Below, piece by piece: positions 9,967 through 52,700 of a stretch of 64,000 bases of DNA (positions are counted from its first letter, which is position 1; every line of letters starts with the position of its first letter). The stretch covers positions 1,061,834-1,125,833 of the forward strand of contig MU004189.1 of NCBI GenBank assembly GCA_010093605.1. Direction: 5' to 3'. The translations under genes were made by a program, and so were the position numbers. The stretch is from Lophium mytilinum. Its lineage: Eukaryota; Ascomycota; Dothideomycetes; Mytilinidiales; Mytilinidiaceae. The notes beneath the pieces were generated by a model. The model saw nothing but the letters and a program-made list of their open reading frames with translations, was not told the origin of the DNA and ran no database searches.

Positions 9967-10285
9967 ATGCCCGGCTGGCTCATCGATTCGGCCAAGACGC
10001 CCTTGGAGCAAGATCCTGGCGCAGCTTCTGGCGTCCGCGAAGAGCCAAACGATCCCAGTGATGTCCAGGCCCAAGTATTTTACCCCTTAAATTACTCTCA
10101 GATGATACTAGACCGAGGGCTGACACATTGCCATTCAGGATCAAAGTACTACGGGCCAAAGACTCCCGAGCACCCGCAATAATGATACCAATCGTAATGC
10201 TGATGCCGGACCCTCATACTCGATGACCCGCTGGCTCAATGAAAGCCCCCGAGAAGACCACTGGAGCACATACAGCCGTGGATGA
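9967..10285 (+). CDS. RW-box microprotein 1
   Basis: Spliced model join(9967..10074,10139..10285), 84 aa. Exon 1 has exactly 36 codons; the intron (64 nt, GTATTT donor, CTGAC branch, TTCAG acceptor) sits in phase 0. The protein is hydrophilic, with no signal peptide or membrane segment. The C-terminal box YSMTRWLNESPREDHWSTYS occupies residues 63-82 and the protein ends two residues later. It is the first member of an array of at least eleven genes sharing this box and the same two-exon design. I do not recognise the family; no function is proposed from the sequence. Neither exon alone is long enough to stand out as a gene, so it would be easy to miss. Confidence 0.75.
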
Positions 10286-12506
10286 GAGCATAGGTGCGGG
10301 TCATAATGGCTATAACTAAGACCTGGCTATGGATGCTGGCATCTGGAAAGGACACATCTTTCAGGGAGGTCGGTGACATGATGAGGTCCATGACTCCCTC
10401 TCTTGGGAGCTTTGGGATGGGCGTCTTGCTTATAGTTTGGTGCCGCGATGTTTTGTTTCCTGCGATCAGGCCGATGCGGCCAATGTCTCAGAGCTTCAAG
10501 GATGTAGAATTGTTATGATTGGATAAATGTATCGTGTGAACGGGAAATGGAGAGATTGACTTGAACCGAAAAACTTGCGTACTTAGGTCGCTATGCTCTA
10601 CTCACTAAATATGATTGTGGTAAGCTTATCGAAGACAGTCGACGCACGGCCGCATGAGTTAGCTAAGCGCCGAAAGCGCGACAGCGCAGACGGTTCGTTG
10701 CAGCCCTCTAGCAACACGACTTAACGGCGCCGTGAATGGCTAGCAAGGCAAAGCACTATGGAATCTCAAATGGGTCGTCGCTAAATATCATATCCATCGT
10801 CCACCATGACTATGCCGCTCTGCACCGACGGAAGCCCAATTTGAGGCAACAAGGTTGTGGAGAGGGAGTGAGAGAATTGCAAAGAGCAAGGACGACTAGC
10901 CAAATAGTGCGATGAAAATTAGCGTTTAACTGATTGAAGATGCAGATGGCTTGAAATTTCATGGTGGTGGATGGATAGAGGATGAGTAGGACAATTCACG
11001 AAAGGCTGACGTTCAGCCTGATCACGGGATCCGCTGACTAAGAAGCACGTGATGTTGAAGCGCGCCACGAATACGTCAATTTGTCCCTTTCCTCAATCGA
11101 GATGTAGGTAAGCAGTGGAGTCCCGAGAAAATTCTGAGCATGTACTGCTCGTACTGCAAACCGCGCTTGTGGTTATGGACATTTGAGACCATGGCACCGT
11201 CAGAGTAGATTCAACTAGGTGCAGCTATTCTAGTCTTTATACAAGGCAGCCCAGTGCAGTTCGCGGAATATGAACTAGTGTGAAGATTTCAAGTTTGTGT
11301 TATTTCGTAGATTCAGACTCCTTATGCTCTAGACGTGAATTCTTACTACCGCTCTTAGGCTCTTCATCACTAGCCGTTGATTGGCTGGCGGGTAGATCGA
11401 GGCACCTAGTAGTGCCTCGCAAACATCCCCGAAACTCTTATGATCACTATCTTTTTCATACTTTCACATGCATTCGGGCATCCAGATATTCTATGGCAAG
11501 GCGGGATAGCATGACGACGTCGAAGTGAAGACTAAAAGCTATGCTGCGGCGGCAATACACATTCCGCAATTCCACTTCTAGCCTCGAGACCGGCCTAGAC
11601 TTACACACCTCAGGCCATCCTTGGGGGTGTCCATGGTATAGGTCGATACCTTGCGCCTCACTTCGCTCGCCCCAAGGTTCCGCCCTGCGCACCCTGCCCA
11701 ATCACGCGATGCCCTTGCATGTGCCTAAGCACGTGACTTCATTGCTCCACCTCTAAATCAGCAACATCTTCTTGGTCAGTGACTTCTATTGCTCGTGATT
11801 CTGGTAGTGGCAGCCCTTTCCAGCGGTAGTGCACGGTTGAAGCCTTTGACGGGTCCATGATGTGGTGCGTCGTTCTTGAAGTCCGGTTGTTTGGTACAAG
11901 CTACGTTTTCAAGGCGTGGATGCTACTCAACTCCCAATCAGAGAAAGATGAGGTTTCCCTTCTGAAAGCAGGGGCGATGCTAGATCCTCGGGGTAGCAGA
12001 GAAATCCCTAGCGGGGCCAGTGAGCAGTTAAAAACCAGCCATGTGCGACGTTGACCTGCCCTATTGCACCATCCCCTGAACACGACCACAGAATGCCGCC
12101 GGGCGGCCTATCTTGGAGAAAGGTTGACTACGCGGAAACAAGTAGTTTTCCCGTCGATCAACACTGAATACTCTGTCGCGTTACTGAGCAGGCCCCGACC
12201 TCCAACATTTTGGATTGTGGGAGCACCGGAGCAGCCTCGAGATTTTGGCAGGTTCAAGACGTCAGAGTCTCGTTGCCGGTCACTGCTCAAAAGGGTGACT
12301 AATGGTTGTTGACACCTCAGACTGCTTGAGAGACTAAAATCCCGCGGATGAAACCAGGGCAAACTGCAGAGGCTAGGAAGCATGAGAATTGCCCTGTGAT
12401 TTCGACAACAGGAGGACTGAAACGAGAGAAAGAACTTACTTTTGCTGCAGCAGTCCCGGAGAAAGGTGTGTCGCTTGCTTTCATGGCATTCTTCACATCC
12501 CACGAC
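10286..12506. other. Intergenic spacer between RW-box genes 1 and 2
   Basis: About 2.2 kb. Open frames are all under 160 codons, show no family features and mostly overlap in antisense. Several CACGTG-type sites occur (for example near 11045 and 11731). No gene can be supported. Confidence 0.45.
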
Positions 12507-12512
12507 TATAAG
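12507..12512 (+). promoter_or_regulatory. TATA box, RW-box gene 2
   Basis: TATAAG in ACTATAAGTAG, 151 nt before the ATG and followed by a pyrimidine-rich leader (about 12534-12560). Confidence 0.6.
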
Positions 12513-12657
12513 TAGAAGAATTTGATGTGCAACCTCCCTTTCTTTCGATCGCTTCTCTCCCCTTATCATCAACACCAACATACAGTGTCATTGGGCATTC
12601 TGATTTGCAGTACTTCTGCTCTTTACCCTACCAGTATCCACCGGGCCGTACCATACC

Positions 12658-13239
12658 ATGCCTGAGCGAACACCGTCTGCCACCATAGCAACGTCGGATG
12701 TGCTCGCTGACCCACCTATGGAGACCACGAAGATAGTGAAGAGTGTCGACGCGGTCACTGACAGTAGTCAATCTTCAGTGAGTCCTCACCAAGGCTCACT
12801 CGAGTTCAGGTTTACTGACCTCTCAAGCACACCGCTACCCGAGAAAATCCTCCAGGTGTCACTGAAACCTCGCACGCATCTCATGTCCTTCATCTTGAAA
12901 CCCAGGAGAGCCCCGGCCCTACTCGTTTCACCAACGGCGTCAGTCAGATGGTATAGAGCCTACCCGGTCGCGCCGCCCCAGCAAAGGACGGGTCATCATA
13001 GCAGCACTAATACACTCCTCATTTAGGGAACTGATATGAGTCTTCAGCATATCGTGGGTACTAAGTCTAGTGCTAAAGCGAGATTGTCTTACTCGATGTC
13101 AAGATGGCTCGCCGAGAGCCCAGAGGAGGAATACTGGCATACTTGTAGTCGGACAGATGTTTCCGAGCGTCGGATTGAGGATAGCTGCGAAGAAGAGGCG
13201 GCAATTACCTTCACTCTTAGCGGAAAACCGAGCTTGTAA
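12658..13239 (+). CDS. RW-box microprotein 2
   Basis: Spliced model join(12658..12777,13027..13239), 110 aa. Exon 1 has 40 codons and ends at a GTGAGT donor; the acceptor ATTTAG at 13021-13026 follows a good branch site (ACTAAT near 13013). The intron is 249 nt, longer than in other members, and is a multiple of three. Read-through would give a 122-residue protein stopping on the TAG of the acceptor itself. The box YSMSRWLAESPEEEYWHTCS lies at residues 62-81. An unusual acidic tail of about 29 residues follows (ERRIEDSCEEEAA), which other members lack. No signal peptide. Function unknown. Confidence 0.7.
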
Positions 13240-16337: not shown

Positions 16338-16678
16338 ATGACTCTTTCGAACACACCAGTAAAGCACAAGCCAACCTTGGCTCCTGCTAAGAATTCCGAG
16401 CTCAACGAAGCAGCGTCTGTGGTTACAAACCAGCAAGCTAAGATCGCTTCGAAGTCTGCCCCCAGGTCGGCACACGAGTGTGGCCAACCTGTACGATCCC
16501 ACTCCGAAACAGTTACCGTAATGTCACTGACATATTTCTGCTCCAGGGCATCGATGAAACATCCAAGTCCATTAGAACGAGCGAGCCCGCCTTGGAGAAC
16601 AACATGTACAAGCCCATCGAACGTTGGCTGAGCGAGACTGCGAAGGAGGAATACTGGCACACTGAGAGTCGGACATAG
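16338..16678 (+). CDS. RW-box microprotein 3
   Basis: Spliced model join(16338..16490,16547..16678), 94 aa. Exon 1 has 51 codons (Lys-, Ala- and Ser-rich, no signal peptide). The intron is 56 nt with GTACGA donor, CACTGAC branch and CTCCAG acceptor, in phase 0. Exon 2 is 132 nt and ends right after the box, YKPIERWLSETAKEEYWHTE (residues 72-91) plus SRT. Exon 2 has the same length as in genes 4 and 9. The last 17 residues are nearly identical to gene 4, so the two are recent sisters. A TATA box and a TCCATCTGCC element lie upstream. Function unknown. Confidence 0.8.
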
Positions 16679-17418: not shown

Positions 17419-17473
17419 AGGCTTACTAGTTCATTGTAAGCCTATTACTGGAGCCGGAGATAATCGCACAGGT

Positions 17474-18671
17474 GCAATGCCCACCAAGGTGGATGCTGGG
17501 GATGAAGCAACCATCAATTTCATCAGCTAAGAAGCTGCCAGATGTTTAAAACGTGAGGCTATGGCAAAGCTCTCGGCGTGAGGGGTGCATGATATGGATG
17601 CGTTGGCATTCGAGAGGCTAGTCAGGCTTATCTGAAGTTGCATGAGAGGGTGCGCACTAAGCCGGTCACAGGTCTCCACACCGGAGGCTCATATGTCACC
17701 GCTCCAAGGAATACACAGCAGAGTCAAGTCGGACAGGGCTTAGCTGGTGTTCTAACAGGCTAGTCGCATGAGAGGCTGCATAGGGTGTCTGCTGAGAGAA
17801 TATGCCCGGTATCTGAGGAACTCTGTGGATCCTCCATTTGTGACTGGTATTCGTTCACGTCACCGGTGACCCGTCCACGGCCCGGGACAATGGTAGGATC
17901 ATAAATGAGAAGATAACAATTGCGCGTATGAGCATCAATCGCTCAACGGACGGAACTAAAATTCATCCTATTGCTAACATAACCCGATTTACCTATCGCT
18001 AGGTCGGGTGGCATATTTCTCTTAAGCTGGTCCGCGGGAGGAAAAGGCAACTGCAATGTGATTTGGTGGGGACGTGAGAAAGTGCCCCAGCCAAAAGATC
18101 GGCGAGCAGTGCTTGCTGCGCGGGAGTGCTTCGCTGCCGTGCAAGGCGGAGATGCTGCGCCATTTTGCAGCTGGAGAGGGCGTCTCGGGTACTGACTGGC
18201 CAGCGTTGGACCCAGCGCACTTCTGCTGAGCAGCCCGGTGCGGTATGGGGTTTGGAGAATCGTTGCTGCTTCGGGTAGCATGGCAGTGGTAGAAATCGTG
18301 GGCCGAAGCGAAGTGGACTTGAATTAAGGTTGTATGCAAGGTGCCGTGAAGGCTAGGGCTCGCGCAACCGCTCACCACGCTAGGGCCCGCGCGGCCGCTC
18401 ACTTGTTTCGCCGCGCTCCCACTTCGCTGCGCTTCCACAACGCTGCCGGGGACGAGCAACCCGGACCCACTCGACTTCCATGACGCTGCAGCCCGACTCA
18501 GTTGATTCGTCCGTTTCACGCTGCTTACGAGCTAGCTGGGATTGATCAAGCTGGATCATGCACCCCTCACGCCGAGAGCTTTGCCATAGCCCCACGCTTC
18601 AAGCACCTGGCAGCTTCTTAGCAGAAATTGATGGTTACCTCATCCCCAGCATCCACCTTGGTGGGCATTGC
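17474..18671. repeat. Inverted repeat, arms of about 117 bp
   Basis: Left arm 17474-17592 and right arm 18556-18671 are reverse complements with few differences; for example CACCAAGGTGGATGCTGGGG on the left matches CCCCAGCATCCACCTTGGTG on the right. About 960 bp lies between them. Confidence 0.9.
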
Positions 18672-18826
18672 AGCTGTCCTGGACACCTTTCCGCGTCCGA
18701 GTGGCACACCCGAAACCCAATCAAATCCCAGAAACAGCAACGCTAAGCCTAGTCAAGCTAATCGCGCGGTCTCTGAATTGCCTGAGCCGCCATGCAAAAG
18801 AGAGAGAGAAAAAAAGTCGTATCCAG

Positions 18827-19148: not shown

Positions 19149-19456
19149 ATGCATCTTCCACAAGCCGTGCAGTCTAAGGAAAGTCACTCTGAGACCAAAG
19201 ACGAGAAGACTGGGACTACTCCGAAATCCACGAGCAGTCCCAGAGTCGCAAATGACAACAGTGACAAGGTACCACGCCATCTCCACCTAGTTTCCCTGCA
19301 ATACTGACACTGTCCATGATTAAGATAGTCGGCAACCCCTCTGAAGACATCAAGACCAACGAATTACGTCCAGGAATCACTCGATGCAGTCCTCTTGAAC
19401 GCTGGCTGAATGAGACTGCGAAGGAGGAATACTGGCACACTGAGAGTCGGACGTGA
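19149..19456 (+). CDS. RW-box microprotein 4
   Basis: Spliced model join(19149..19268,19325..19456), 83 aa. Exon 1 has 40 codons, very polar (HSETKDEKTGTTPKSTSS). The intron is 56 nt, GTACCA donor, phase 0; the acceptor is ATTAAG, a weak type, chosen because it alone keeps frame and gives an exon 2 of 132 nt as in gene 3. A TAG four bases later would throw the frame. The box CSPLERWLNETAKEEYWHTE is at residues 61-80, followed by SRT and the stop. No signal peptide. Function unknown. Confidence 0.75.
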
Positions 19457-20064: not shown

Positions 20065-20537
20065 ACACGTAACCTTGCGATAAAATGCTTGACGTCCCGA
20101 GAGCGTTCGAATAAGCCACTGTGGCAGCGGATGCTTAACCCGAGCAGGTGCTTGAAACCGGTACCGACCGAGATCTCCTAGACACTCGATCCAGGTGTCT
20201 TCAAATGTGGGCACGGTTTCGTAGAGCAGAGACATCATCTGTAGGCTAGATAGAGAAAAGCTAGCATGTAATCTAGCGACTCTGGCATCCGGCGTCTTAG
20301 CAGCTTAAGGAAAGAGTGAATACCGTGCTTCCACATCCGCGCCGGCATTGAGTACTTGGAGGCAAGACGGCGCAGTGCAGGAGAGGCCAAAAGGTGCCGA
20401 CTGGCAAGAAAAAAGTCATGATGTTCATGCAACAAGGTCCTATGCAGCGCGATCAACGCTTGCCAGTGGTCATTCGTCAGCCTGGAGTCTCCGACTGTCC
20501 GATCTTCAAGTAAGAAAGAAACGGGGCTGAGCAACAC
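20065..20537 (-). pseudogene. Fragment of an Est1-type DNA/RNA-binding-domain gene
   Basis: The minus-strand reading ALIALHRTLLHEHHDFFLAS, then SPALRRLASKYSMPARMWKH, FLKLLRRRMPESLDYMLAF and YETVPTFEDTWIECLGDLGR matches, from memory of the family, the conserved part of the fungal Est1-type (telomerase-activating / SMG7-like) DNA/RNA-binding-domain proteins. The reading shifts frame by one base just after YLAY and loses similarity after LGDLGRYR, so this is a broken partial copy. A second, shorter piece of the same region lies at 42157-42339, also on the minus strand. Confidence 0.75.
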
Positions 20538-21775: not shown

Positions 21776-22114
21776 ATGGCGGATCATAATGCGAGTCAGC
21801 CCAATGAAAATGATGCTGGGAATAAAGAGTTGATCCCTTCGCGGGTATCCGATGCAAAGGGCGGCCCGTCCTTGAAAGCCAATGGTCTTAAGGTACGATC
21901 GAGATTGCCGTTGAAATATCCAGGCCTCTGACGTCAATTATTTTTTCAGCAATTTCAGACGATTAATGGCTGCTCTGATCCTACTGCTGGCAACTTCGAA
22001 GGCCATTCCAAGGATGAGGCGAAAAAAGAGCTACCGTATTCGATGATTCGCTGGCTCAACCAGGCGCCAGAGGAGGAATACTGGAATTCTGAAGATTCTG
22101 GCAGGTGTACGTAA
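21776..22114 (+). CDS. RW-box microprotein 5
   Basis: Spliced model join(21776..21892,21950..22114), 93 aa. Exon 1 has 39 codons in a good ACCATGG context. The intron is 57 nt with GTACGA donor, CTCTGAC branch and TTTTTTCAG acceptor, phase 0; a second acceptor nine bases later (TTTCAG) is also in frame and would drop three residues. The box YSMIRWLNQAPEEEYWNSED is at residues 69-88, followed by SGRCT. This is the last member before the nested transposon. Polar, no signal peptide, function unknown. Confidence 0.78.
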
Positions 22115-22922: not shown

Positions 22923-22970
22923 TAGAAGGCTGCACCGGCTCGTGCACCGGACTAGCTTGTGCACGCGCTT

Positions 22971-23701
22971 TGTTACGAACCCAGGACGCGAGCTATCCCA
23001 GGACAAGCGTCCCAGGAGGAGGACGGCCCCAGGACAGATGTCCTAGGACCAACGGTGTGCCAGGACACAGGCTGTCCCAGGACAAACATCCTAGGACGAG
23101 TAGGGTCCCAGGATAGAGGTACCAGGACCCAAGGGGACCTAGTACAGTAAGATAGATGCAGTTCCAGCCGTATCTATATACAGGAGGGTATTTAGAGGAT
23201 AATAGAAAGGCAACTAGAAAAGGTAGTAGTTATAGAATATAAGGTTATATAACTAATCTTCTAGATCTTACTTAGTATAAATACTAAGGGTAAAATTAAA
23301 AAGAGTAGAGAGTAATCTCTATAATCTTAGTAATCTTATATTAAGAATAGAGATTAGAGAGAATAGAGAGAGTAGAACTAAATTATATAAAGGTTAAATA
23401 ACTATAAGAGTCTAGAGAATTCCCTATTATCTTTTATTCTTTATACTTAACTTCTTATTATATCTAGTATATAGAACTTAATAGCAATTAATTATAACTT
23501 AAGTATTTTAACTATCTTTATATACTTTTAATACTATTAAAGCTACCTTTCTTTTAATATTCTACTTATTTATACTTAAACCTTATATTATATATTAGCC
23601 TATAACGCAGTTAACTAGTAGGTAAGTAGAAACCTAACTATCTAGACTCTCCCTCTAAAGTCTCTTAGTATAATCTTTAGGTAAATAGGTAGTTTATAAT
23701 A
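22971..23701 (+). repeat. Left LTR (731 bp)
   Basis: Starts TGTTACGAACCC and ends TTTATAATA. The first 160 bases or so keep normal G+C and hold many CCAGGAC / GTCCTAGGAC motifs, while the remainder is RIP-degraded. Confidence 0.85.
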
Positions 23702-26700
23702 CTTTAAGTACCTATAAGTATTAGATACCTGTGTAATAAGTTAAGCTATTCTAGTAATATTTATAACTTTAGAAATAACTAGTTAGCCTACTATAGTATA
23801 GTATATAGTAGAGTAGAATAGATAGCTTATAGAGCTATATACTATAATATTATAGCTTTAGATAAGAGCGGAGTAGTAGGCTTAGGCCTAGTTAACTAAG
23901 GTACCTTTACTAAGAAAGTATAATAGTACCTAAGGAAAGCTTAATAGCTTTCTTATAGAAATATAACTTTACCTTTACTATAACTAGGCTATATACTCTA
24001 AGAAACCTAATAAGGTTCTAGTAGTAGGTATATACCTAGAGGGTAATGCCCTTATATAGTTCTACCTAATAATAGAAAATTTCCTTAATAATTCTGCGGA
24101 TAAATAAGATAATAATACTAGAAGAGTCTTTAGAAACTATACTATCTTTAAGAAATATATTAGGGATATCTATAGAGACTCTAACGCAACCTAAACTACT
24201 ATATATAAACTCTAGTACCTTAAATAGACTAGAATAGTAGCGGAATATATAGCTAAGTTTTAATAGTATTTAGCGCAACTTAACTAGAATAAGAGCCTTC
24301 TAGTTAAATAGTATTATGCGGGTCTTATAAATAAGATTAAGAATAAGTTTATAAGTATTAACTAACTAACTAAACTTAGTAAGATAGTTAAACTCTATAA
24401 CTAGATTAATAACCGCCATATTAAGAGAATATTAGAAAAGAAGAGCTAGTAAAAACTAGTAGTAACTATAGAGAAGAGATAGAAGTACTCTTAGAATAAT
24501 TACTATAGAGACCTAATAGATTTAGACTATATTAGTAAATAGGCCCTAAAGAAGAAATAGATAAAAAAGAAGAACTCTAAGCCTAACTTTTAGAGGCTAA
24601 ATAAGAACTAGCTTAAGAAATAGTATAATAATAACGCGTGCCTATAGTATAGTAAGACCGGCCACTACTAATAAGACTATCTAGCGGGAGAGTTTAAGGG
24701 TAGTCTAGGAATAAGTACTAATACTAGAGTTACTATAATCTAGAACTAGCTACTAGAGAATATAGAAATCCTACTTAACTAAGCATAGATTAATACTTGC
24801 ATCCGGCGCAAGGTGTACTAGATCTGCGGGATACTAACCTACTAAGAACTAGAGTATAAGATAGAATATTAGGAAATCTATATAGACTATAATAGATATA
24901 ATAAAAAGAAACTATTTCTTAGGGAAATTAGGGCCTAGTATATAGATACCTACGCTAAGGTATAAAAAATATATATAGAGTACTGCGCTAGGTAAAAGCT
25001 TAAAGAAGAAGAATAGATATATAATGCGCAAGAGAAATAGGCAGCTTATTATAAGAAGAGATAATAGTATAATATACTACTATAGATAATATATAAACTA
25101 GAGGGATATAATATCTATAGTTTATAATAAATAGACGCTAATAGGTAAAGAGTAGTAAAGAAACTAATACCCTATAGAAATATAAGTTTTATAGCGTGCT
25201 ATAATAATAACTATTAAATATATTACTAGGCTAAGGAAGAAAGTAATTACTTTTCTTAGAAGGTAGAATTATAGAAGATAAGAGTAGATACTCTAAGACC
25301 CCCTACTAAGGTTAAACCTATAATACTAAAATAATCTACTAGTATCTTTATAGATAAAGAGTTAGCTAAAGTAATAAAGAACCTTAATATAGATAAAGAT
25401 TTTATTATAATTAATAATAAAGCCCTAGAAGACTAGGGCTTAAAAGAGTTAGATAACTCTAACGCCTAGAAAAATATTAGCGCTAGAAACTAGCTTAACT
25501 AGATAGAAGAGACTATAGTGGAACTAATAGACGCCCCTATAGATAAAGAGTCTAGCAATAAAAATAACTATAGAAGTAATAAATACTAAGTACTCTATTA
25601 GATATAGTATAAGAATAGATATAGGTACTACTAAAAAGGAAAGAGAGTAATAGGATAGAATACTAAGGACTAGTACTATCTACTCTTACGCTTAGTAGAA
25701 TGCTTTAAGAGTGCCGGATGCTATATCTATAGCATAGACCTATAGTCTAGAGTTCTAATAGATCTAAAAAACTAGTAGGCTACTAGACTAAGAAATTACT
25801 AGAAAATATAGTAATAATATTTCTAAGAAATATATATAGTATATAGCCCCGGTTATACTTATATATTAACTTTAAGATTAATAAGAGACTTAAAGGAAAA
25901 GCATTAGTAGATAGTAGAGTATTCTAGAGCTTTATATTACTAAAATAGGTAGAGAATAAAGGCCTTCTATACTAAAAGAAATAGAAATCTAAGAAAGTCT
26001 AACTAGTAGATAACTAACTACTAGAGTACGGAGGAGAAGTAATTAACCTTAAAACCTAACTTATAATATTATTAGTAGCTAGCTATATAGAAATACTATA
26101 TATAAATATTATAGATATTAAAGGGCTAGATATAATTCTAGAATAGGATTAGCTCTACTAAAATAACCTAGTAATTAACTAGAAGAAGAGAGAAATAAGA
26201 CTAGTAGCCCGGGTGGCTAGAATTAGATAATTAGTTTAGTAATAACTAGAAAACTAGAAGAAAGAACTCTTTATAGGATAAATCTCTCTATATAAGATTA
26301 AGAGAATCTATAATAAATAACTAGTAGATATAGAAATTATCTAGCTATAATAAATAGCTACTATTAAAGAAGTAGTTATAGAGATACTATAAAAAAACTA
26401 CTTAGAGTTTAAGAAACTCTTTAAGAAGAATATTAAAAATATGCTACCTTAGAACTAGCTATAGAACTATATAATACTACTTAAGAAAGGGGTAAAGCTA
26501 ACCCCGGGACCTATCTATTTATTATCTTAAGATTAGTATAAGGCGCTGCAAGAATATATTAAGATAAACCTAGCTAAGGGCTATATTAAGGAAAGTAAGA
26601 GCTTAATAGCCTTACTAATCCTCTTTATACCTAAAAAGAATAGAAAACTATAACTATATATAGACTATTAAAGACTAAATAATATAATAATTAAGAATTA

Positions 26701-29700
26701 CTATCTATTACTACTTATCTAGGAGTTATAAGACTACTTATAAGAAGCTAAATAGTTTACTAAGTTTAATATCTAAGAGAAATATTACTATATTAAAATA
26801 ATGCCTAGTAAAGAGTAGAAGATAGCCTTTAGAATAAGGTTTAGACTCTATAAGTATAGAGTAATGCCCTTTAGCTTAACTAACGCCCTAGTAATATTCT
26901 AAGTACTTATTAACTACGCGCTATAATAATATCTTAATGTATTTATAACTATATATCTAGATAATATATTAGTATATACTAATAGAACCTTAAAAGAATA
27001 TAAGGAATATATATAAAAAGTACTTATAAAGCTATAAGAGTTTAGACTTCTAGTATACCTAGATAAAAGTAAGTTTTATATTATAATAATAGACTTCCTT
27101 AGCTTTATTATCTCCCGCAATAGAATTAAGATAGACCTAAAGAAGACTATAGTAGTCTTAAAATAGCTAACGCTATAAAATATAAAGGATATATAGTTAT
27201 TTTTTAGTTTTATAAACTTCTATAGAAAGTTTATTTAGAAATATTTAAAAACTACTATACCCCTTATAGAGATAACTAAGAAAGATAAGGGATTTTAATA
27301 GACGGTAGAAACGTAGACCGCGTTTAATAAACTTAAGAAGAAGTTTACTACCGCCCTAATTCTAATAATATTTAACCCGGAACTAGAAATAATAGTTAAG
27401 GTAGACGCCTTAGACTATACTATAGGCGCTTGCTTAAGTTAGAGGTACCTAGATAGAAAATGCTAACTAGTAGCATTCTATTTAAGAAAACTTACTCTAG
27501 AAAAACTTAACTATAATATTTATAATAAGAAGTTATTAGTAATTATAGTAGTATTTAAGTAATAGAGACTCTACCTTAAAGGACTAAAATACTAGATAAT
27601 AGTCTACTTTAACTATAAGAACCTTACAGCCTTTACTACTATAAAGTAGTTAAATAGATAATAAGTAAGATAGGTAGAGATGCTAGCCTTATTTAACTTT
27701 AAAATCTATTACTAGAAAGAATTAGAGAATAGAGCTATAGACGCGCTTAGCCGCTAATTAGACTATATACTTAGTACTAAACTAGTATATAATATAGTAC
27801 TTATAAGGGCTATAGACGGCACCTTATAATATAATAATCTAAAACTAGCAGTAATACTTAAGATAAGCAACGCTTAGATAAATAAATTCTAGAAAGAAGA
27901 TAGATATATAGAGGCCTTCTAATATAACACTTCTATAATCTTAGATAAAGATAGTAACTAGATATACCTAATAAAGAGAATGTTATAGGTACTAGAAGTA
28001 TACTATAAGAAACTTACTAAGGAATACTATAGCGCGCTAATGTATAGATACTAAGAATAAGAAAAAACCTTAGAGAGACTCTTAAGGAACTACTAGTTTC
28101 CCTAGATAAGAGTAATAGTAAAAGAAGTAATTAAGAACTGCAAAGACTATAGAAAAAATAGAATAGTAAGATACGCACCCTATAGATTACTTTAAAACCT
28201 AAGGGTTTCTAAATAACTATAGGATTTAGTAATAATAGACTTTATTATAAAGTTATCTCTATTAGTAGAACTAGGAACTAATATAAGCTATAACTTAATC
28301 TTAGTACTTATTAATTAACTTACTAAATTTTTATACTTTATACTAGTATAAGAAATATATAGTATAGCTAAGCTAGCTTATATAGTACTATAAATTCTAC
28401 TAAGCAGCTACTAGCTACCTAAGAAATTTATTACTAATAGAGATAAACTCTTTATTTTATACTTCTAGAAGACCCTTATAGTAAGGTTAGGGGTAAACTA
28501 TAAGCTCTTAATAAGTTTCTACCTATAGATAGATAGATAGATAGAATAAATAAACTAGACTTTTAAATAGTACCTATAAAACTATATTAACTATTAGTAG
28601 AATAACTAGGTAGAACTACTACCTATAGTATAGTTTACCTATAATAGCGCTAAATTAGCTATAACTAGCAAGTCCCTATTCTATATAAACTACAGCTATA
28701 AGCTAGAGGTATATTAAAAAGCTAGGAAAGATATAATAAACGCGTAAATAGTAATAGAAAAGGCGGCGTTGCTAAGAAACTTATATATATACCTTAACTA
28801 AAGTATTTAGGCTAGAAATAAGATAACTTAGGCATATATAGATAAGAAATAGTTAAATAGACTAATCTTTAAGAAGGGGGATAAGGTTTACCTATACTAA
28901 AAAAACCTTAAGACTAGAAGACCTAGTAAAAAACTTAATTATATTTAAATAGAACTATTTAAAGTTAATAAAGTTATTAGTTCTATAAACTATAAACTAA
29001 AACTACTAAAGAATATAAAAATCTACCTAGTATTCTATATATTACTACTTAAACTAGTACTAGTAAATACTAAACTCTAAACTACTATATAACTTAAGAA
29101 GGAGAATAAATATAAGGTTAAAGAAATCTTAGAACTATAGAAGATTAATAATTAGTAGAAGTACTTAGTTAGATAGAAAGAATAGAAAATAGACTAGAAT
29201 ACCTAGAAACCTATTAAGAACCTAAGAAACTACTAATAATTAGTAAACTAGTTTTACTAAAGAAATTTAGCAGCGCCGGATTCTAGGTAGAGGGAGACCC
29301 TAGGGCAGCCTAATTAACGTTCGCTAGTAGGTTAGAGGACCCGGGTAATAGCTATCTAGAGGATTAGGTAGTAGCTAGCTTCTCCGCCTCTTCTAAATTC
29401 TCTAACTTCTTAATAGAAGTAAGCTTCCGCTTAAATATCTTTTTATAGTAATACTTAAGAAGCTAGAGTTACTTCTAAATATAAATCTTGCGCATAAGTA
29501 TTACTTACTCTACCTCTTTATAAGTAAGTATAGCCGCCTCTATAGTAACTAGCTAAATCTAGAGCTTAGCCTCTACTTTCTTAACTTAAGTCTAGTATTT
29601 CTTAGTTACTACTAGATTGCAGGACTTTAGGTTGCAATTAAGGTACTTAGAGTACTAACTAGATATAGTATCTACTAGATAGTACTAATAGAAGCGCTAA

Positions 29701-29915
29701 TAGTTTCTATAGAGAGTTAGTATATTATAATTATAATTATAAATCTTAGAGGCTAGATATTTATAATAGATAGTTAAGGTTTTAACCTTAGGTATAGCAA
29801 GAAGAAGAAAGAGTAGAGAATACTACCTTAAGAGTATAGAGGTATCTCTAGCCTTATATAGAACTAAGATAGTATAAATTAACTTTTAAGCTAAAAGTCT
29901 TATAGGGGGAGTAAG

Positions 29916-30646
29916 TATTATAAACCTAGAATATAAGCTATTCTAGAATAAGTATTCTAGAAGAAGGATGGCCCTAGAATAGATATTCTAGAACTAATAG
30001 TATACTAGAATATAGGCTATTCTAGAATAAATATTCTAGAATAAGTAGAGTTCTAGAATAGAGGTACTAGAACCTAAGGGGACCTAGTATAGTAAGATAG
30101 ATATAGTTCTAGCTATATTTATATATAGAAGAGTATTTAGAGAATAGTAGAAAGATAACTAGAAAAGGTAGTAGTTATAAAATATAAGGTTATATAACTA
30201 ATCTTCTAGATCTTACTTAGTATAAACGCTAAGAGTAAGATTAAGAAGAGTAGAGGGTAATCTCTATAATCTTAGTAATCTTGCATTAAGAATAGAGATT
30301 AGGAAGAATAGAGAGAGCAGAACTAAATTATATAAAGGTTAAATAACTATAAAAGTCTAGAGAATTCCCTATTATCTTTTATTCTTTATACTTAACTTCT
30401 TATTATATCTAGCATATAGAACTTAACAGTAATTAATTATAACTTAAGTATTTTAACTATCTTTATATACTTCTAATACTATTAAAGCTACCTTTCTTCT
30501 AATATTCTACTTATTTATACTTAAACCTTATATTACGTATTAGCCTGTAACGCAGTTAACTAGTAGGTAAGTAGAAACCTAACTGTCTAGACTTTCCCCC
30601 TAAAGTCCCTTAGTATAATCTTTAGGTAAACGGGCAGTTTATAATA
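29916..30646 (+). repeat. Right LTR (731 bp)
   Basis: Same length and order as the left LTR; TATTATAAACCT corresponds to TGTTACGAACCC. The CCAGGAC motifs have all become CTAGAAT-like, so this copy is degraded along its full length. Confidence 0.85.
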
Positions 30647-32041: not shown

Positions 32042-33036
32042 TCATATCCACTGCTTATTTCCAAAATGCGAGATAAAAGCACCACCAAACCCACTGTCGA
32101 TGCTGGCCTTCTCCCAAGTCGACCTGATAGTTCGAACGGCTTCGTCTACGGGCGTTGCGCCCTTGAAATCAGGAGCATAGGCTGCAAGCTTGCCCATGAA
32201 ACCCATCAAGCCTTGCATCTGTTCCGGAGTAACTGTGAGTTCGAATTAGCAGAACGTCCACATGTTCCAATCTTGAAATCAGAGACACGTACCACTGTCA
32301 AACTGGCCCACCTCTACCACTCCCGGGCTCATGCTCAGGAAGAGCACACCGTCTTTCTTGTATTGCGCGTTGAACTTGGCCACAATGACGTTCATGGCCG
32401 CCTTGGACGCAGCATACAAAGCACTGTTCTCAACCTCGAGATCGTTAATGAAGTCGAGGTCGGCATGACCGCTGGAAATGGCGATGACTTTCTTAACCTT
32501 ACCCTTAAGGACAAGAGGGACGAAGAGGTTAAAGAGGTGGATGTTGCCGACGACATTGGTCTTGAATAGCTTCGATGAAACATCCTCTAGCTCCTCGACC
32601 TTGTCGCCCCTGTTGAGCACATAGTGTTAGCCTCAGACCAGCCCAAACAGTAGCCAGAGGGAAGTGGACCTACAATGCGCCGATGGGGTCAAAGGCGTCA
32701 AAGTGGGACGGGAAAGCTCCGTTGGCAACTAGGTAGTCGATGCCACGCTCGCCAACAATCTTGGTAGTGTCGGTAGCGGCTTGCTTCAGAGTGGCGTAGC
32801 TCGTGAGATCTGCGTGGAGAATGTGGACATTGGAACGGTCGCCCAGCTCTGCTGCCACTTTCTTTACGGTCGCAGCCTTATCGCGAACTAGACCGACGAT
32901 GACGTTCTTCGGATCCTCCGAGATCTGCTTGACGAGCTCGAACTACACTGGATTGAGCACAAGCAATGTGTAAGACGGTATGAGGTGGCCTTACTCCGAT
33001 TCCCTTGGACACTCCAGTAATAAGGTAGACCGACAT
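32042..33036 (-). CDS. Short-chain dehydrogenase/reductase (SDR)
   Basis: Model complement(join(32042..32232,32293..32609,32674..32942,32995..33036)), 272 aa. A classical SDR oxidoreductase that binds NAD(P)H in a Rossmann fold: the cofactor loop TGVSKGIG is at residues 7-14, an Asp in the ADLTS strand is typical, and the catalytic pair appears as Ser in VIAISSGHADL and YAASK. The usual NAG motif is changed to NGA (VANGAF). Introns are 52, 64 and 60 nt in phases 0, 2 and 1, and all junctions restore family-like sequence. It resembles fungal ketoreductases of the norsolorinic-acid-reductase-like group, but substrate is not readable. It is divergently transcribed from the Zn2Cys6 regulator 285 bp away. 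It lies only 260 bp from the nested transposon. Confidence 0.88.
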
Positions 33037-33321
33037 GCTGAGAGATCTTAACTTGGCGTGAGAGGCAAAGTAGAGTACTGAGATATGAGATAGATTGTAA
33101 GTCTGCGTTGGAGTCTTCTGATATTTATACTCAGAGCACCTCGCAGCATCCGTGCGGAATCTCGAGAGCTAGCCCGCGCACAAGTTCAGGTCCGCTTTAC
33201 TACATGCCACGCCTCACCCATAAGAAGCTCTCTGTCTTGAAAGTTGGTCCCCTAGCAATGGAGGTGTTTTATATTGCGGACTAGCTTCCGCCGTTCGGGT
33301 TAGCGTGCGGGAAATTGGCCA

Positions 33322-37592: not shown

Positions 37593-38005
37593 ATGACTGG
37601 AGCCAACGGAAACCCATCAGACGCCGCGAACGAAGTCAGAGACGAGAACATCATAGCCTCCGGAGTCAGAAAGCCTAGTGCGGCAGAGGCTAGGGTTGCT
37701 TCAACTGAAGTACAGCAAGTTGCAGTGAGATTCGTTCTTTCCCACACTGCTGAATCGAGACCGTAGCGCTTACAAACGGATGCAAGGTAATGGATCCACC
37801 AACGCGTGGTGGCACGGCAATCGCTAGCTTCGGCGAGCGTCTCAGCAACCTTGATCAGAACGGTGATGTGCCGTACTCGATGGCTCGGTGGTTCTTGGAG
37901 GACCGACATGACAGTTATTGGACAGCTATCGGACGCTTTGACACGGTCCAACAGAATGACAAGAATTCTAAGAAGGAAGGAGTCGCCGAGAGGGATGCAA
38001 TGTAG
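37593..38005 (+). CDS. RW-box microprotein 6
   Basis: Spliced model join(37593..37709,37787..38005), 111 aa; a stronger donor (GTGAGA at 37725) is also in phase 0 and would give 116 aa. The acceptor GCAAG at 37786 is of the weak AAG type. Exon 2 begins VMDPPTRGG and carries FGERLSNLDQNGDVPYSMAR, then WFLEDRHDSYWTAIGRF. This is the most divergent box, with RHDS in place of the usual PKEE, but RW-x9-W is kept. Its upstream block F-x-E-x2-L-x2-LDQ and the downstream GRF are shared with gene 7, its sister. The tail is Lys/Asp-rich. No signal peptide. Confidence 0.7.
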
Positions 38006-40868: not shown

Positions 40869-41263
40869 ATGGCCTGCACCAACGCGACTGAAGCCACTGA
40901 AGAGAACTTTGAATCTATTAGATTTGACTTGCGACCTGTGTCTCAGGCAGTGACCGGTTCCAATGTGACGGCGGGAGACGGAGTTCAGGTAAACTCCATC
41001 CAAAACGACTGAAGGCAATGGCTAATGATATTCTCCATGACAAGAAGGACTGCTCCTTAAACGGCGATAACCAGCAGAACGGCACCAGCGCTGGGATCGC
41101 CAGCGTAGACTTCCTCGAAAGTCTCCGCAAGCTTGATCAAGGCCCCGCCGGATCATACGCCCTAGCCCGCTGGAGTACTGAGACCCCAAAAGAAGAGCAC
41201 TGGAATGCTGTGGGACGATTCGGCTCGGATAATAGTGTCAAGGAGAACGAGTCGAAGTTGTAG
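40869..41263 (+). CDS. RW-box microprotein 7
   Basis: Spliced model join(40869..40988,41045..41263), 112 aa. Exon 1 has 40 codons after ACCATGG. The intron is 56 nt with GTAAAC donor, GGCTAAT branch and GACAAG acceptor, phase 0 (a second AAG three bases later is equivalent). Exon 2 is 219 nt, the same as in gene 6. The box YALARWSTETPKEEHWNAVG is at residues 78-97; L of the usual RWL is S. Shared flanks with gene 6: FLESLRKLDQ before the box, GRF after it. Hydrophilic, no signal peptide. No TATA box is evident within 200 nt, unlike most members. Confidence 0.75.
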
Positions 41264-42156: not shown

Positions 42157-42339
42157 TCAATGATCTTGCAGATCCTCGTCCTCAATAGCCATGCGGTACC
42201 GACCAAGATCTCCTAGACACTCGATCCAGGTATCTTCGAATGTGGGCACCGTTTCGTAGAGCATAGACATCATCTGGTAGGCCAGCTCTTCGGCTCCGAA
42301 ATGAGAGGCCGGAATGAGGCATCGCGCGCAACCCACCAA
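42157..42339 (-). pseudogene. Second fragment of the Est1-type domain gene
   Basis: Minus-strand reading LAYQMMSMLYETVPTFEDTW then IECLGDLGRYRMAIEDEDLQ matches the same region as the fragment at 20065-20537, extends slightly further and keeps frame where the other is broken. About 100 bp are closely similar at DNA level to 20152-20258. It is truncated at both ends: the upstream part is unrelated sequence that forms an inverted repeat. Confidence 0.75.
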
Positions 42340-44274: not shown

Positions 44275-44607
44275 ATGGATTCTCAGTCCTCTCCTCAAGC
44301 TAGGGCATCCGGAAACGAGGTTGCACATGTGTCTGCTAGGGTACGTGTTATCTACACGAACCACCCAACAGTCTTGCAAAGGCCAACGCTGATTGAAGGC
44401 TCTCATGTCTTTTAGGATCCTGCAGCTAGCAGCAGCTTTCATCAGGGTCTTCGTCACCTACACGAAAACGCAGAAGGAGAGCTCGCAACTACTCGTTGGC
44501 TGTCGGAAGCCCCGAATGATGAACACTGGAACGCAGTTGCGCGGCTAGGTACCGCCAAGCAGGAGCAGAACGCCCCAAGCGACGTCGACGGGGAACCTGA
44601 GATCTGA
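44275..44607 (+). CDS. RW-box microprotein 8
   Basis: Spliced model join(44275..44340,44416..44607), 85 aa. From the only in-frame ATG, exon 1 has 22 codons (shortest in the family); the same frame is open for 26 more codons upstream without ATG, so an earlier start codon may have been lost. The intron is 75 nt with GTACGT donor, GCTGAT branch and TTTTAG acceptor, phase 0. The box LATTRWLSEAPNDEHWNAVA is at residues 45-64; the leading YSM is replaced by LAT. The tail is QEQNAPSDVDGEPEI. Polar, no signal peptide; function unknown. Confidence 0.68.
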
Positions 44608-47179: not shown

Positions 47180-47448
47180 ATGACACAACCACAGAGCACC
47201 ACCGAGACAGCTCGCCCCGGTGATACCGCACCGATCGGCAACGGCCCTCCAACGAAATCGGAGGTAGGTGTACATGTCCACACTCTTTGCCTCCTGAGTG
47301 ACTGAGTTCTTTATAGCCAAATGTTTCCTCGGATGACGTGAAGGGCTATTCCATGGCCCGATGGCTGGACGAGAAGCCAAAAGACGAGGCATGGAGCACT
47401 GAGGGCTTGTTCAGTCGGACTGATGAGCGGCCGGTGGATGATTTTTGA
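47180..47448 (+). CDS. RW-box microprotein 9
   Basis: Spliced model join(47180..47263,47317..47448), 71 aa, the shortest member. Exon 1 has 28 codons, as in genes 10 and 11. The intron is 53 nt with GTAGGT donor, GTGACTGAG branch and TTATAG acceptor, phase 0. Exon 2 is 132 nt, as in genes 3 and 4. The box YSMARWLDEKPKDEAWSTEG is at residues 39-58 and leads into LFSRTDERPVDDF, combining the TEG of genes 10-11 with the SRTD of gene 2. No signal peptide. Confidence 0.8.
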
Positions 47449-50149: not shown

Positions 50150-50155
50150 TATAAG
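50150..50155 (+). promoter_or_regulatory. TATA box, RW-box gene 10
   Basis: TATAAG in GTAGTATAAGGTGC, 137 nt before the ATG. Confidence 0.6.
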
Positions 50156-50286
50156 GTGCATGATATCCCCTCCATATTTGAGGTTTCTTCTTCAGCGCCT
50201 TGCAACAAGCAACCTTCAATTTCCACCTTCATCTCTTTAAATCTGGACTTTTTTCTCCACCGCGATTTCTACCCTTGCCGATTCCC

Positions 50287-50588
50287 ATGGCCGAAAAGAA
50301 GCACACTGAAGAAACGGTCGGTACCGTGAAAGCTGCGGCGCGCAGCTCTTCGTCCCAACCGCAAAAAGCGGTTAGTCTTTCCTTCACCATCCTAAAGTTT
50401 TCCCTAACGTAGTGTTTCAACAACAGAATGGCTCGACCAAGAGCCCGCAGCACTACAGCATGACTCGATGGCTGGAAGGAAATTCAAAGGTTGAACCTTG
50501 GAGCACCGAGGGATGGGGTAGCCTGGTCGAGGGACATAAAGCAGCGGCAAATGTGAGCCTAGTTGTGGAAGATGGGTCCTCAAAGTGA
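50287..50588 (+). CDS. RW-box microprotein 10
   Basis: Spliced model join(50287..50370,50427..50588), 81 aa. Exon 1 has 28 codons (MAEKKHTEETVGTVKAAA), closely related to gene 11 (MAQQKRTEEAV). The intron is 56 nt with GTTAGT donor, CCCTAAC branch and AACAG acceptor, phase 0. Exon 2 is 162 nt. The box YSMTRWLEGNSKVEPWSTEG is at residues 38-57, then WGSLVEGHKAAA and the end EDGSSK. GNSKVE replaces the usual ExPKEE, so one of the two acidic positions is lost. No signal peptide. Confidence 0.8.
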
Positions 50589-52249
50589 CCAAGTCTGCCG
50601 TTTTGGGTCACGGTTTCGGTTTTGTCCGTGAAGGCAGGAATTTTACGCCTTGTAAATGGAGAGGGGGTTTCTTTTCAACTGGAAGGCCGTCGAGGAGAAT
50701 TGAGTTTTCGCAGGATTTGAAGTTCCGTAATGGAGAGAATATAGCAAGAAAGGTGAAGAATGAAGGCGCGTATGCCTCAATCACCGTGACGCTAATTGAG
50801 GCGACGTCATGCATCCCAGCATCTCAGGCTACAAATAGCGTTGCCTTTGCATCCTCTTGCGGAAGGCGTATTGCCAATCCGTGAGATTGGGTAGTAAAAT
50901 GTCGCATAGCGGAGTTAGACGGCAGCAGAGCGACGATCGATACAGTCTCGGATAGCTTGACTTGTCCTTCTCTGGCATGCCGCCCAAGAGGCGTGTAGGA
51001 TATCCCCGAAAAAGGCTCAAGCGGTCCCTGAGTAGTGGGTGAGTGGCAGGGCCGCCCCCCAAACTACGTTTGCGATGATACGACCTCTGAGATCGATGGC
51101 CTCGAATGAGGCCAAAAAAGCCAGAAGGCAACCGCGGTCATGCAAGTGGCAAGACAGGAGGACAACGGAGTCGTTGCGCAGCCGGTCGAGCCACTCAGAC
51201 CTTTCCCCCACGTCATTCAGTGTGATGCACACAGAAGCGTGCATGAGGAAGTGGTCATGTGACTGGATACGAGACGAGTACAGTCTAGTATTGGACAGCC
51301 TTGCAGGAGTCCCAAAGGTTCGGGACGACGGACGGGCGGTGCGACCCTCCCTTTCGCTGGCTCCACGAGGAGCCCGCATGGTCGGTTAGTCATGTGACTG
51401 ATTAGGGGGTGAGTGAAGCCCCGTATTGGACAGCTTTGCAGCAATCCCAATGGCTCGGAACGCCGGACGGGGGTAGAATCCCGCAGTTTTGCTCGCTCGC
51501 CGGCCTCAAAACCTGCCACCCATGTGTCGCGGCTGTGGTCTCTTTCTTGTGGGTCCCTTTCTTACAGACATGTGTTAGCGCAATGGCGGAGATAGATTAC
51601 GAAGTAATCAGGCGCTCAGTAACTCACTCAGGTAGCCCCCCTCACCATTGCGGGACACAAGTAACCGATAGAAGCCAATGAAATTATGCCTAGGGTTCAC
51701 TGGCTCATGCGGTCGACTTATGTGTTCCGGACTTTGGGACACATAGTAGTTGGTCATACCATTTTACTGACGTTCAATGTTGGCGTCCCGAAACCTGGCA
51801 GCCTTAGAGCGTGCGGCACCATGAACGGTGAGCGGTCCACTGTCAAGAGTTAGGAACACGCTACGCGAATGGCTCGAGTGACCAATTTAAAAGAGCTGCA
51901 GGTTGGTGTATGTTTGCCTTAATGTCGTTTTCATGAGAACCATTGCACTGGGGTTTCATGGGTTGCTCAGGTTGCAGAAAAGCGGCATCCTAGCGGGCAC
52001 CCGCTGCCGCAGCTGGAGGACTCCGTGGGGTCTGACATGGGTCGCCGGATCGCCCTCGAAACCCTAGGCAGTCAATTGTGCCGCCACATCTGATCGAGCG
52101 TGCACTCACGAAGCGCCACGCATCAACCCCGGCTGATGGCGTGTCTACAATTGGCGTACATGGACGCTGAGAACGGTAAGAGTCTTGAATCGATAGGCCC
52201 GCTTGACACAGCCAGCCGGTTGACGGCGGCAGATTCCTCGGGGCGAAAG
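50589..52249. other. Spacer between RW-box genes 10 and 11
   Basis: No gene supported. Contains a direct repeat with period 135 (about 51254-51510). Confidence 0.45.
51254..51510. repeat. 135-bp tandem duplication, diverged
   Basis: GTCATGTGACTG begins at 51254 and 51389; both units continue with GTATTGGACAGC, TTGCAG, ATCCCA/GTCCCA and CGGACGGG. Each unit holds the palindromic GTCATGTGAC site. Confidence 0.85.
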
Positions 52250-52255
52250 TATAAG
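52250..52255 (+). promoter_or_regulatory. TATA box, RW-box gene 11
   Basis: TATAAG in AAGTATAAGAGGCA, 149 nt before the ATG. Confidence 0.6.
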
Positions 52256-52398
52256 AGGCAAGTTTGTCGTCCGTCTTTGGTTCCCAAACTCAGTTCCGTT
52301 GCATCAAGCGTTACCATCAGCCTTCCCTGATCATACTTCGATTCTGCACACGCAAATCTTCATCTTAGATACCAACCTGGTCATTCCTAGCCCCAGTC

Positions 52399-52700
52399 AT
52401 GGCACAACAAAAGCGCACTGAAGAGGCCGTCAGGCTTCCAGGAGCCGCAGAAGTCAGGCATTCTCTCGAGGGACAACCGCTAGTTTGTGGGCCTACCATT
52501 TTAATGAATCTTGCACTGACATGGCGTGACAACAGCAGCATAGCTTGACCAGATGTCCGGAAGAATACTGCCTGGCTCGATGGTTGCAAGAAACACCAAA
52601 GGAAGAGCCATGGAACACGGAAGGGTGGGGGAGCTTGCTAGATGAGCACGAGGCGGGGCGAGCTTCGGCCGCAGCTACCGAGGATCAGTCGTCCAAGTGA
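52399..52700 (+). CDS. RW-box microprotein 11
   Basis: Spliced model join(52399..52482,52539..52700), 81 aa. Exon 1 has 28 codons. The intron is 56 nt with GTTTGT donor and CACTGAC branch; the acceptor is a CAGCAG tandem, and using the second CAG gives exon lengths (84 + 162 nt) identical to gene 10. The box YCLARWLQETPKEEPWNTEG is at residues 38-57, then WGSLLDEHEAG and the end TEDQSSK, so genes 10 and 11 are sisters from a recent tandem duplication 2.1 kb apart. Last member seen. No signal peptide, no membrane segment. Confidence 0.8.

Follow-up and report, generated by a model that had tools for sequence, protein, structure and literature searches.

Eleven small two-exon genes sharing an Arg-Trp-x9-Trp box in Lophium mytilinum, and the PTS1-like ends of their probable relatives

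What are the short two-exon genes that recur along one strand of a 64,000-nt stretch of the Lophium mytilinum genome (hereafter the window), and what might their products do? The original prediction described eleven such loci, each encoding a variable, polar protein with an Arg-Trp-x9-Trp (RW-x9-W) box towards its C-terminus, and offered a docking peptide, an unconventional effector or a selfish drive/antidote set as possible roles. Here we consider the gene models, the coherence of the family, its surroundings and its probable relatives, using "array" for the loci within the window.

Gene models along the array

A six-frame scan of the window placed RW-x9-W at eleven loci of the family, every one of them on the + strand, and together with the leave-one-out profiles given below this confirmed the eleven single-strand, two-exon loci first proposed. 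Three further matches lie on the - strand; the remainder of the box is absent from all of them, and a stop interrupts one. In the 44.5 kb outside the AT-rich part of the window the bare motif occurs 13 times (the eleven plus two); 60 shuffles that approximately kept dinucleotides gave 1.8 on average and never more than 6.

The first five loci are g01 (exons 9967-10074 and 10139-10285; 84 aa; box Arg codon at 10229), g02 (12658-12777 and 13027-13239; 110 aa; 13102), g03 (16338-16490 and 16547-16678; 94 aa; 16622), g04 (19149-19268 and 19325-19456; 83 aa; 19400) and g05 (21776-21892 and 21950-22114; 93 aa; 22049). The remaining six are g06 (37593-37724 and 37787-38005; 116 aa; 37886), g07 (40869-40988 and 41045-41263; 112 aa; 41168), g08 (44275-44340 and 44416-44607; 85 aa; 44494), g09 (47180-47263 and 47317-47448; 71 aa; 47359), g10 (50287-50370 and 50427-50588; 81 aa; 50466) and g11 (52399-52482 and 52536-52700; 82 aa; 52578). 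The start codon of g08 is uncertain, no obvious full-length start being present. All eleven loci allow a two-exon model with a phase-0 intron, the intron being 53-75 nt long in ten and 249 nt in g02. Encoded proteins span 71-116 aa, so that the lower end of the predicted range of 71-112 aa held and the upper end did not.

For g02, g04, g06, g07, g09, g10 and g11 the model was placed by eye, with phase as one of the criteria. Phase 0 is independently backed by intron enumeration for g01, g03 and g05, and by deposited proteins for g03, g04 and g05, which are letter-identical to the NCBI entries BU16DRAFT_561705 (P0003), BU16DRAFT_561706 (P0005) and BU16DRAFT_561707 (P0001), respectively. Enumeration also offered alternatives for three loci, namely different acceptors for g07 and different models, some of them in phase 2, for g02 and g08; each leaves the box and the C-terminus unchanged. 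For g02 the overlapping NCBI model, BU16DRAFT_561704 (P0002), includes one exon more and encodes 151 aa. The proposed frame had the top codon-usage score of the three forward frames in all 22 exons, under a scoring that penalises stops in the other frames and so favours the proposed one. A reverse frame outscored it in two cases, g05 exon 1 and g09 exon 2. Two first exons were not clearly better than their own shuffles (g08, 0.18; g11, 0.06).

Family membership, selection and surroundings

Leave-one-out profiles recovered each of the eleven loci with E-values of 1.4e-14 to 7.5e-8, the best non-member standing at 0.12 to 0.95; the test is slightly favoured because its rows come from one alignment of eleven loci picked on RW-x9-W. 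Recovery also followed in all six cases tried in which a near paralogue was dropped as well (E <= 7.2e-6). With the full profile no further copy came to light in the window (12th match, E 0.23). Over the 55 pairs, pooled pS in the box was 0.79 against a pN of 0.32, and neither of the other two frames gave a contrast of this kind; the box is under purifying selection. Neutral change in the box had been named beforehand as grounds for doubt, and these values instead favour a functional family. For the first exon only the g10/g11 pair was available, with pS 0.72 and pN 0.42.

Contrary to the original prediction, common sequence is not limited to the box: g06, g07 and g08 have about 20 more residues in common before it, along with a longer second exon. 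The g04 box is 86% identical to that of g03, and the second exon of g10 is closest to that of g11. Box identity averages 54% between neighbours and 45% over all pairs. Order along the array and similarity are only weakly related (Mantel r -0.11, permutation 0.22), so a simple stepwise tandem series is without support. The prediction of polar, variable proteins without a membrane helix was supported; the highest 19-residue Kyte-Doolittle mean among the eleven proteins is 0.63, and long hydrophobic stretches are absent. Taken together, the results support one multigene family in which a conserved short box is carried on otherwise variable, polar proteins.

It might be argued that the loci are chance ORFs or functionless, decayed copies of one gene, in keeping with the short exons, the start of g08 and the first-exon codon scores of g08 and g11. 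We consider this exceedingly improbable in view of the leave-one-out recovery, the purifying pattern in the box and the identical deposited models for g03, g04 and g05.

Between g05 and g06 lies an AT-rich block (22991..30646, unstranded) without a box gene, with a 711-nt direct repeat at either end (22991-23701 and 29936-30646; 88% identical). The repeats are probably LTRs, and the block would then be the remnant of an LTR retrotransposon. Flanking sequence can be aligned only upstream for g03/g04 and g03/g05 and downstream for g10/g11. A TATA-like hexamer (strict pattern) is present 123-375 nt upstream of eight of the eleven starts. The sequence CATCTGCCTT, about 290-360 nt upstream, was considered as a promoter element shared across the array and rejected, being confined to g03-g05.

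The apparent remnant and a possible resemblance (the second half of the core may be like a short His-Trp motif of Ty1/copia polyproteins, the spacing to the upstream Arg differing by one residue) suggest that the core could be a fragment domesticated from a retrotransposon polyprotein. However, none of the boxes falls within the repeat-bounded block, and g03-g05 have their own deposited spliced models. The check for a transposon consensus, run against Pfam only, returned no retrotransposon family at E <= 10 for the eleven proteins and five relatives (see below), in searches whose HMMER filters drop most weak matches. We therefore regard such an origin as very unlikely.

Local amplification, fast-changing N-terminal parts and the adjacent putative remnant might be expected of unconventional effectors or of a selfish drive/antidote set. 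Among ORFs of at least 30 aa, however, no second one recurs along the array, the other translated repeats being antisense to the box genes or confined to two or three local repeats, and the drive/antidote proposal is thus unsupported. Neither is a secreted effector favoured: in a comparison of hydropathy means only, the best 11-residue value near the start was 1.04 in g02 and no higher than 0.44 in the remaining members, so that no strongly hydrophobic N-terminus was seen, and the probable relatives have PTS1-like ends. Since change is also purifying where it can be measured (the box, and the single pair for exon 1), we judge either role improbable.

Probable relatives and C-terminal ends

The loci had been called unrecognised, which does not hold for all eleven, because g03, g04 and g05 equal, and g02 overlaps, proteins deposited at NCBI. 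These four entries (BU16DRAFT_561704 to 561707, Lophium mytilinum) are labelled only as hypothetical and have no Pfam domain listed; for the other seven members the three protein searches used returned no entry, although these too may be deposited. The description stood as far as named families are concerned. Pfam searches with the eleven proteins and the five relatives gave sub-threshold matches only (best E 0.027), and nothing significant came from NCBIfam, which covers bacteria and archaea (a single member reached 0.11), or from PDB sequences (no match in one search, one at E 2 in another). Rfam had no match to the window at gathering thresholds. Among the 84,980 bacterial and archaeal species of genome_contigs pattern matching picked out six stretches, and in viral_contigs nine; none was confirmed by tblastn with P0009. 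A 24-residue consensus had no match among plasmids. In the literature searched, Lophium mytilinum is named in three papers; the strings EHWNAVAR, EHWNAV, ARWLNE and BU16DRAFT were not found there, nor was a published account of an RW-x9-W family in a literature search at listing level. The family is best read as an undescribed microprotein family, new to the libraries searched.

Box-centred protein searches did return five unnamed proteins of 68-80 aa with a fuller core, ARWLxExPxxEHWNAVAR. P0004 was found with a Lophium-only query (E 0.0069), and P0006, P0007, P0008 and P0009 in the next search (E 0.17, 0.43, 0.61 and 0.86), whose query included P0004, tail and all, as a row. The certain family members P0001, P0003 and P0005 scored only E 0.23 to 4.3 in that search, and hardly better scores are therefore possible in a database of 5.77 billion. 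Singly, the four later E-values are non-significant; four at or below 0.86 where 0.86 are expected has a Poisson P of 0.012, or 0.056 if P0006 and P0007, which are close kin, are counted once. With such database E-values the case for kinship leans on the common core and tail. In the five proteins the core is conserved at 11-15 of 18 positions and the N-terminal parts are not, except between P0006 and P0007, and the EHWNAVAR of g08 recurs identically in P0006, P0007 and P0009. A Lophium-only profile scored the five at 31.8-44.2 bits. Conversely, a profile of the five placed the eleven window ORFs at ranks 1 to 11 (E 5.6e-11 to 4.7e-4; next, 1.2), and without P0004 the eleven still came first (worst E 0.029; next, 2.6), a reciprocity that is partly circular because the relatives were picked for box likeness and P0004 was in the query. 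From these sequence comparisons the five are probable relatives of the window family, and it is strongly suggested that relatives exist outside Lophium.

All five relatives end exactly 20 residues past the last Trp, in CKL (P0004), SKI (P0006), SKM (P0007), SKK (P0008) and SKM (P0009). PMC4526572 gives the core of the peroxisomal PTS1 signal as (S/A/C)-(K/R/H)-(L/M) and CKL as functional in yeast IDP3, and PMC9133605 describes an Ile-ending tripeptide, ARI, as functional in Ustilago. The pattern is present in P0004, P0007 and P0009, in P0006 too if Ile is allowed, and in g07, which ends in the canonical tripeptide SKL (codons 41252..41260 on the + strand, before the stop), 19 residues past the final Trp of the box. 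Given the family composition, a [SAC][KRH][LMI] end is expected with a probability of about 0.0032, so that four in five relatives would arise by chance at about 5e-10 if independent; as P0006 and P0007 are close kin, the effective count is three of about four lineages. One fit among the eleven window members has a P of about 0.035 and is weak alone. Lys or Arg directly precedes the tripeptide in all four fitting relatives. For the other members, readthrough or other frames gave no plausible PTS1, the only additional match, at g01, lying well past the stop.

These ends might have nothing to do with peroxisomes: the family could be real and cytosolic or nuclear, with the SK[LMI] ends reflecting another feature, coincidence or mere box lookalikes. 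Ten of the eleven window members and P0008 lack the pattern, tail length in the window ranges from 6 to 33 residues, the fits of P0006 and P0007 are not independent, and four relatives have the high E-values given above. On the other hand, the tail is of constant length in all five relatives and fits PTS1 in four, though most residues between core and end vary (only 2-4 of 15 identical in nine of ten relative pairs), and g07 and P0004 fit by different letters. We consider the non-peroxisomal explanation possible but doubtful.

A possible mechanism and comparison with known systems

Because proteins with the less diverged form of the core end in a PTS1-like tripeptide 20 residues past the last Trp, an origin as a peroxisome-imported microprotein appears most likely. 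The explanation we tentatively prefer, with slightly less than even confidence, is that the family was once peroxisome-targeted and was amplified in Lophium, most copies losing the tag, while the core docks a partner; we infer the import, the partner, the effect and the direction of change. The eleven loci would belong to one family, amplified locally and of ancient divergence, whose proteins are small, soluble and for the most part disordered and whose working part may be the C-terminal core of about 18-20 residues (RW-x9-W here, ARWLxExPxxEHWNAVAR in the less diverged form). After multiplication of the gene in one Lophium region, the C-terminal tag would have been lost or changed in ten of eleven copies and the core kept by purifying selection, g07 having SKL. 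The core would dock on one conserved partner, the N-terminal part would serve as a poorly constrained tether and the tail would set location, so that copies with PTS1 might act in the peroxisome and those lacking it on the same partner in the cytosol. The docking peptide first suggested could thus fit the family; the one AlphaFold model had a mean pLDDT of 66.6 and a pTM of 0.25, and docking is therefore without fold support. A more specific version, which we think unlikely, has the proteins as piggyback adaptors, in which docking core and PTS1 tail carry a signal-less partner into peroxisomes and tagless copies are cytosolic competitors. If so, duplication and loss of a three-residue tag would set the partner's split between compartments.

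New here are a family outside all libraries searched, its fuller core and its probable relatives outside Lophium. Eleven paralogues with the same core, one of them with a canonical peroxisome tag, pose a testable question of localisation. If import is true, the array would be a natural experiment in relocalisation after duplication and the core could serve as bait for the partner. Our results also suggest that short two-exon genes of this kind may escape annotation or stay nameless in it.

Known PTS1 cargo consists mostly of folded enzymes. With such matrix proteins, imported through Pex5, the family shares a C-terminal SKL in g07 and CKL, SKI, SKM and SKM in four of five relatives, whereas its members are of 68-116 aa, modelled at low confidence in one case, and ten of the eleven in the window have no signal. 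With short-protein families that lie in tandem in fungi, such as wtf meiotic drivers or small secreted effectors, it shares local amplification of short, fast-diverging genes; unlike them, it showed no membrane or secretion feature and no co-repeated partner, and has a conserved soluble core. Piggyback import into peroxisomes, as given for CCS-SOD1 and for LDHBx with LDHA/B in PMC4680570, is a mechanistic analogy only, but it illustrates how a partner might be carried by a small PTS1 protein that has a docking core.

An array of box genes on one strand

The full box, with its RW-x9-W spacing, was found at eleven sites in the window by six-frame scan, all on the + strand and 2.1-3.5 kb apart with the exception of one gap of 15.8 kb. 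The same scan gave three RW-x9-W matches on the - strand, which are unrelated to the box family. Outside the AT-rich part (44.5 kb) the bare motif was counted 13 times; 60 shuffled versions of that sequence averaged 1.8 occurrences and never exceeded 6. A stronger test of the family than this excess over chance is the leave-one-out analysis, in which a profile of ten boxes recovered the eleventh in all 11 runs (E 1.4e-14 to 7.5e-8; best non-member 0.12 to 0.95), with the small advantage that the rows were taken from a single alignment of all eleven. When a near paralogue was dropped too, all six trial cases were still recovered (E ≤ 7.2e-6; best non-member 0.31 to 0.89). The eleven one-strand loci of the original prediction are borne out, and a profile of all eleven revealed no twelfth copy in the window.

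For each of these loci, g01 to g11 (9967-52700), a model of two exons and a single phase-0 intron could be written, exon 1 encoding 22-51 and exon 2 43-72 amino acids; the introns are 53-75 nt long except that of g02, at 249 nt. Four models (g01, g03, g05 and g08) came from intron enumeration, and the other seven were drawn by eye, partly on phase. Those of g03, g04 and g05 match deposited Lophium mytilinum proteins letter for letter, and the deposited g02 protein overlaps our model but carries an added exon. Enumeration also offered other acceptors for g07 and alternative models for g02 and g08, all leaving the box and C-terminus unchanged. By codon usage the proposed frame was the best of the three forward frames in all 22 exons, stops in competing frames being penalised; two exons had a higher-scoring reverse frame, and exon 1 of g08 and of g11 scored without clear excess over shuffles. 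By eye, the frame of g08 exon 1 continues without a stop for some way 5' of its ATG (44275) and holds no further ATG there; its start may be lost or non-ATG.

In a 16-codon stretch that starts four codons before the Arg and ends at the last Trp, pooled across 55 pairs, pS was 0.79 and pN 0.32; in the two other frames of this stretch the values were 0.42/0.43 and 0.31/0.45. Differences were most numerous at third codon positions (511 versus 336 and 230). We quote no ratio for the box because synonymous sites are near saturation and the pairs are not independent. Beyond the box, pS and pN were 0.75 and 0.27 for the entire exon 2 of g03/g04, and 0.72 and 0.42 for exon 1 of g10/g11.

The eleven proteins are hydrophilic (GRAVY -1.35 to -0.54), with net charges of +1 to -8, 0 to 2 cysteines each and a 19-residue hydropathy mean peaking at 0.63. 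AlphaFold, given g07 exon 2 and an alignment of 16 sequences, predicted two helices (residues 17-32 and 34-45, with RW at 42-43) at a mean pLDDT of 66.6 and pTM of 0.25, a prediction that supports no fold.

Surroundings of the array

Between g05 and g06 the array is interrupted by an AT-rich block, a short-chain dehydrogenase ORF (32279-32626, - strand) and a Zn2-Cys6 regulator ORF (33304-34728). Self-comparison showed that the block is bounded by two direct repeats of 711 nt, 88% identical (22991-30646), and it is likely a decayed LTR retrotransposon. The region had been described as transposon-rich, which is fair for 23-32 kb; elsewhere self-comparison (14 pairs in all) gave short repeats only. 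Among ORFs of at least 30 amino acids, none recurs along the array except the box gene and its antisense; the remaining translated repeats are local or occur at two or three places. Stop-to-stop ORFs in the flanks match arylsulfotransferase (544-1794), amino-acid permease (5552-7138, - strand) and a DDHD domain (55759-58089), and half of the ten scanned ORFs were without a match.

Several smaller repeats were also noted. An inverted repeat between g03 and g04 (17468-18677), with arms of ~126 nt, 90% identical and ~960 nt apart, may be a foldback element or a small DNA transposon. A 92-nt stretch recurs at 92% identity in two of the array's intergenic regions (20159-20249 and 42194-42285), and tandem duplications lie between g10 and g11 (51233-51498, unit about 131 nt) and after g11 (54028-54269, unit about 121 nt). 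The right end of the window (62001-64000) is AT-rich, with a GC of 0.26, as is the 24-32 kb block. Among the reverse-transcriptase matches listed for the assembly, the best three and many others fall on one contig, C21, which suggests that this contig is repeat-rich.

Probable relatives outside Lophium

The window is assigned to Lophium mytilinum (Dothideomycetes, Mytilinidiales) on the strength of the four deposited proteins rather than of its own sequence record. Mytilinidioid fungi are described as inhabiting gymnosperm or angiosperm bark (PMC11514609). Three successive profile searches were made of a database of 5.77 billion protein sequences. The whole-length alignment returned Lophium proteins only (3 matches at E ≤ 10 of 561 candidates), namely those identical to g05 and g03 and the one overlapping g02; the fourth, identical to g04, surfaced in the box-centred search. 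That Lophium-only query gave four matches of 36 candidates, three Lophium proteins at E 0.20 to 1.1 and an outside protein, P0004, at 0.0069. With P0004 as first row, the query returned eight of 20 candidates: P0004 itself, the three Lophium proteins again, now at E 0.23 to 4.3, and four further probable relatives, P0006, P0007, P0008 and P0009 (E 0.17, 0.43, 0.61 and 0.86), true family members scoring no better than the newcomers. The five bear source marks (lgn for P0004, P0006 and P0009; jgi for P0007 and P0008), lie on contigs of 1.2 to 15 kb and are probably metagenomic and fungal. Separate searches confirmed no relatives in bacterial and archaeal species genomes or viral contigs.

P0006-P0009 are individually non-significant by database E-value; four at or under 0.86, versus 0.86 expected, has a Poisson P of 0.012, which becomes 0.056 when P0006 and P0007, being close kin, are treated as one. 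Against the Lophium-only profile the five reach 31.8-44.2 bits. Reciprocally, with a profile built from the five, the eleven window ORFs take places 1-11 among all six-frame ORFs (E 5.6e-11 to 4.7e-4; next 1.2), and they do so again with a profile of four that omits P0004 (worst E 0.029; next 2.6). This test has some circularity, since likeness to the box is what the five were selected on. Their tails depend less on that selection, as does the confinement of conservation to the core: identity among the five is 11-15 of 18 in the core, and before it 0-9 of about 36 in nine of ten pairs (P0006/P0007, 21 of 35).

C-terminal tails and a possible peroxisomal origin

The seven closest sequences (the five relatives, g07 and g08) share eight invariant columns, R W E W N A V R. 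Since the highest scores against the outside-relative profile belong to g07 and g08, both of which retain WNAV-x-R, similarity points to the outside form as probably the older one and to the remaining array as derived. The core, being kept while the rest changes, may be a contact with a conserved putative partner. As the simplest account, an ancestral microprotein family with putative peroxisomal import would have been amplified in Lophium, where the tag would mostly have been lost.

Five sequences, g07 and four of the relatives, carry the C-terminal pattern on which this peroxisomal reading is based. The tail after the last box Trp is 20 residues long in all five relatives and 19 in g07, and ends in CKL, SKI, SKM, SKK and SKM in the relatives and SKL in g07. 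The other ten window members, with tails of 6-33 residues, have no PTS1 fit and no sign of peroxisomal targeting. PMC4526572 gives the core of the peroxisomal signal PTS1 as (S/A/C)-(K/R/H)-(L/M). With Ile allowed, the pattern fits four of five relatives (P0008, ending in SKK, is a near miss) and one of eleven window members; without Ile, three of five and one of eleven. A random C-terminal end would fit with a chance of about 0.0032, so that four of five has a formal probability of 5e-10 under independence, a figure that is too strong, given the close kinship of P0006 and P0007 and the use of P0004, with its tail, in the query by which the other four were retrieved. Among known systems, CKL is functional as PTS1 in yeast IDP3 (PMC4526572), and a tripeptide ending in Ile, ARI, is functional in Ustilago (PMC9133605).
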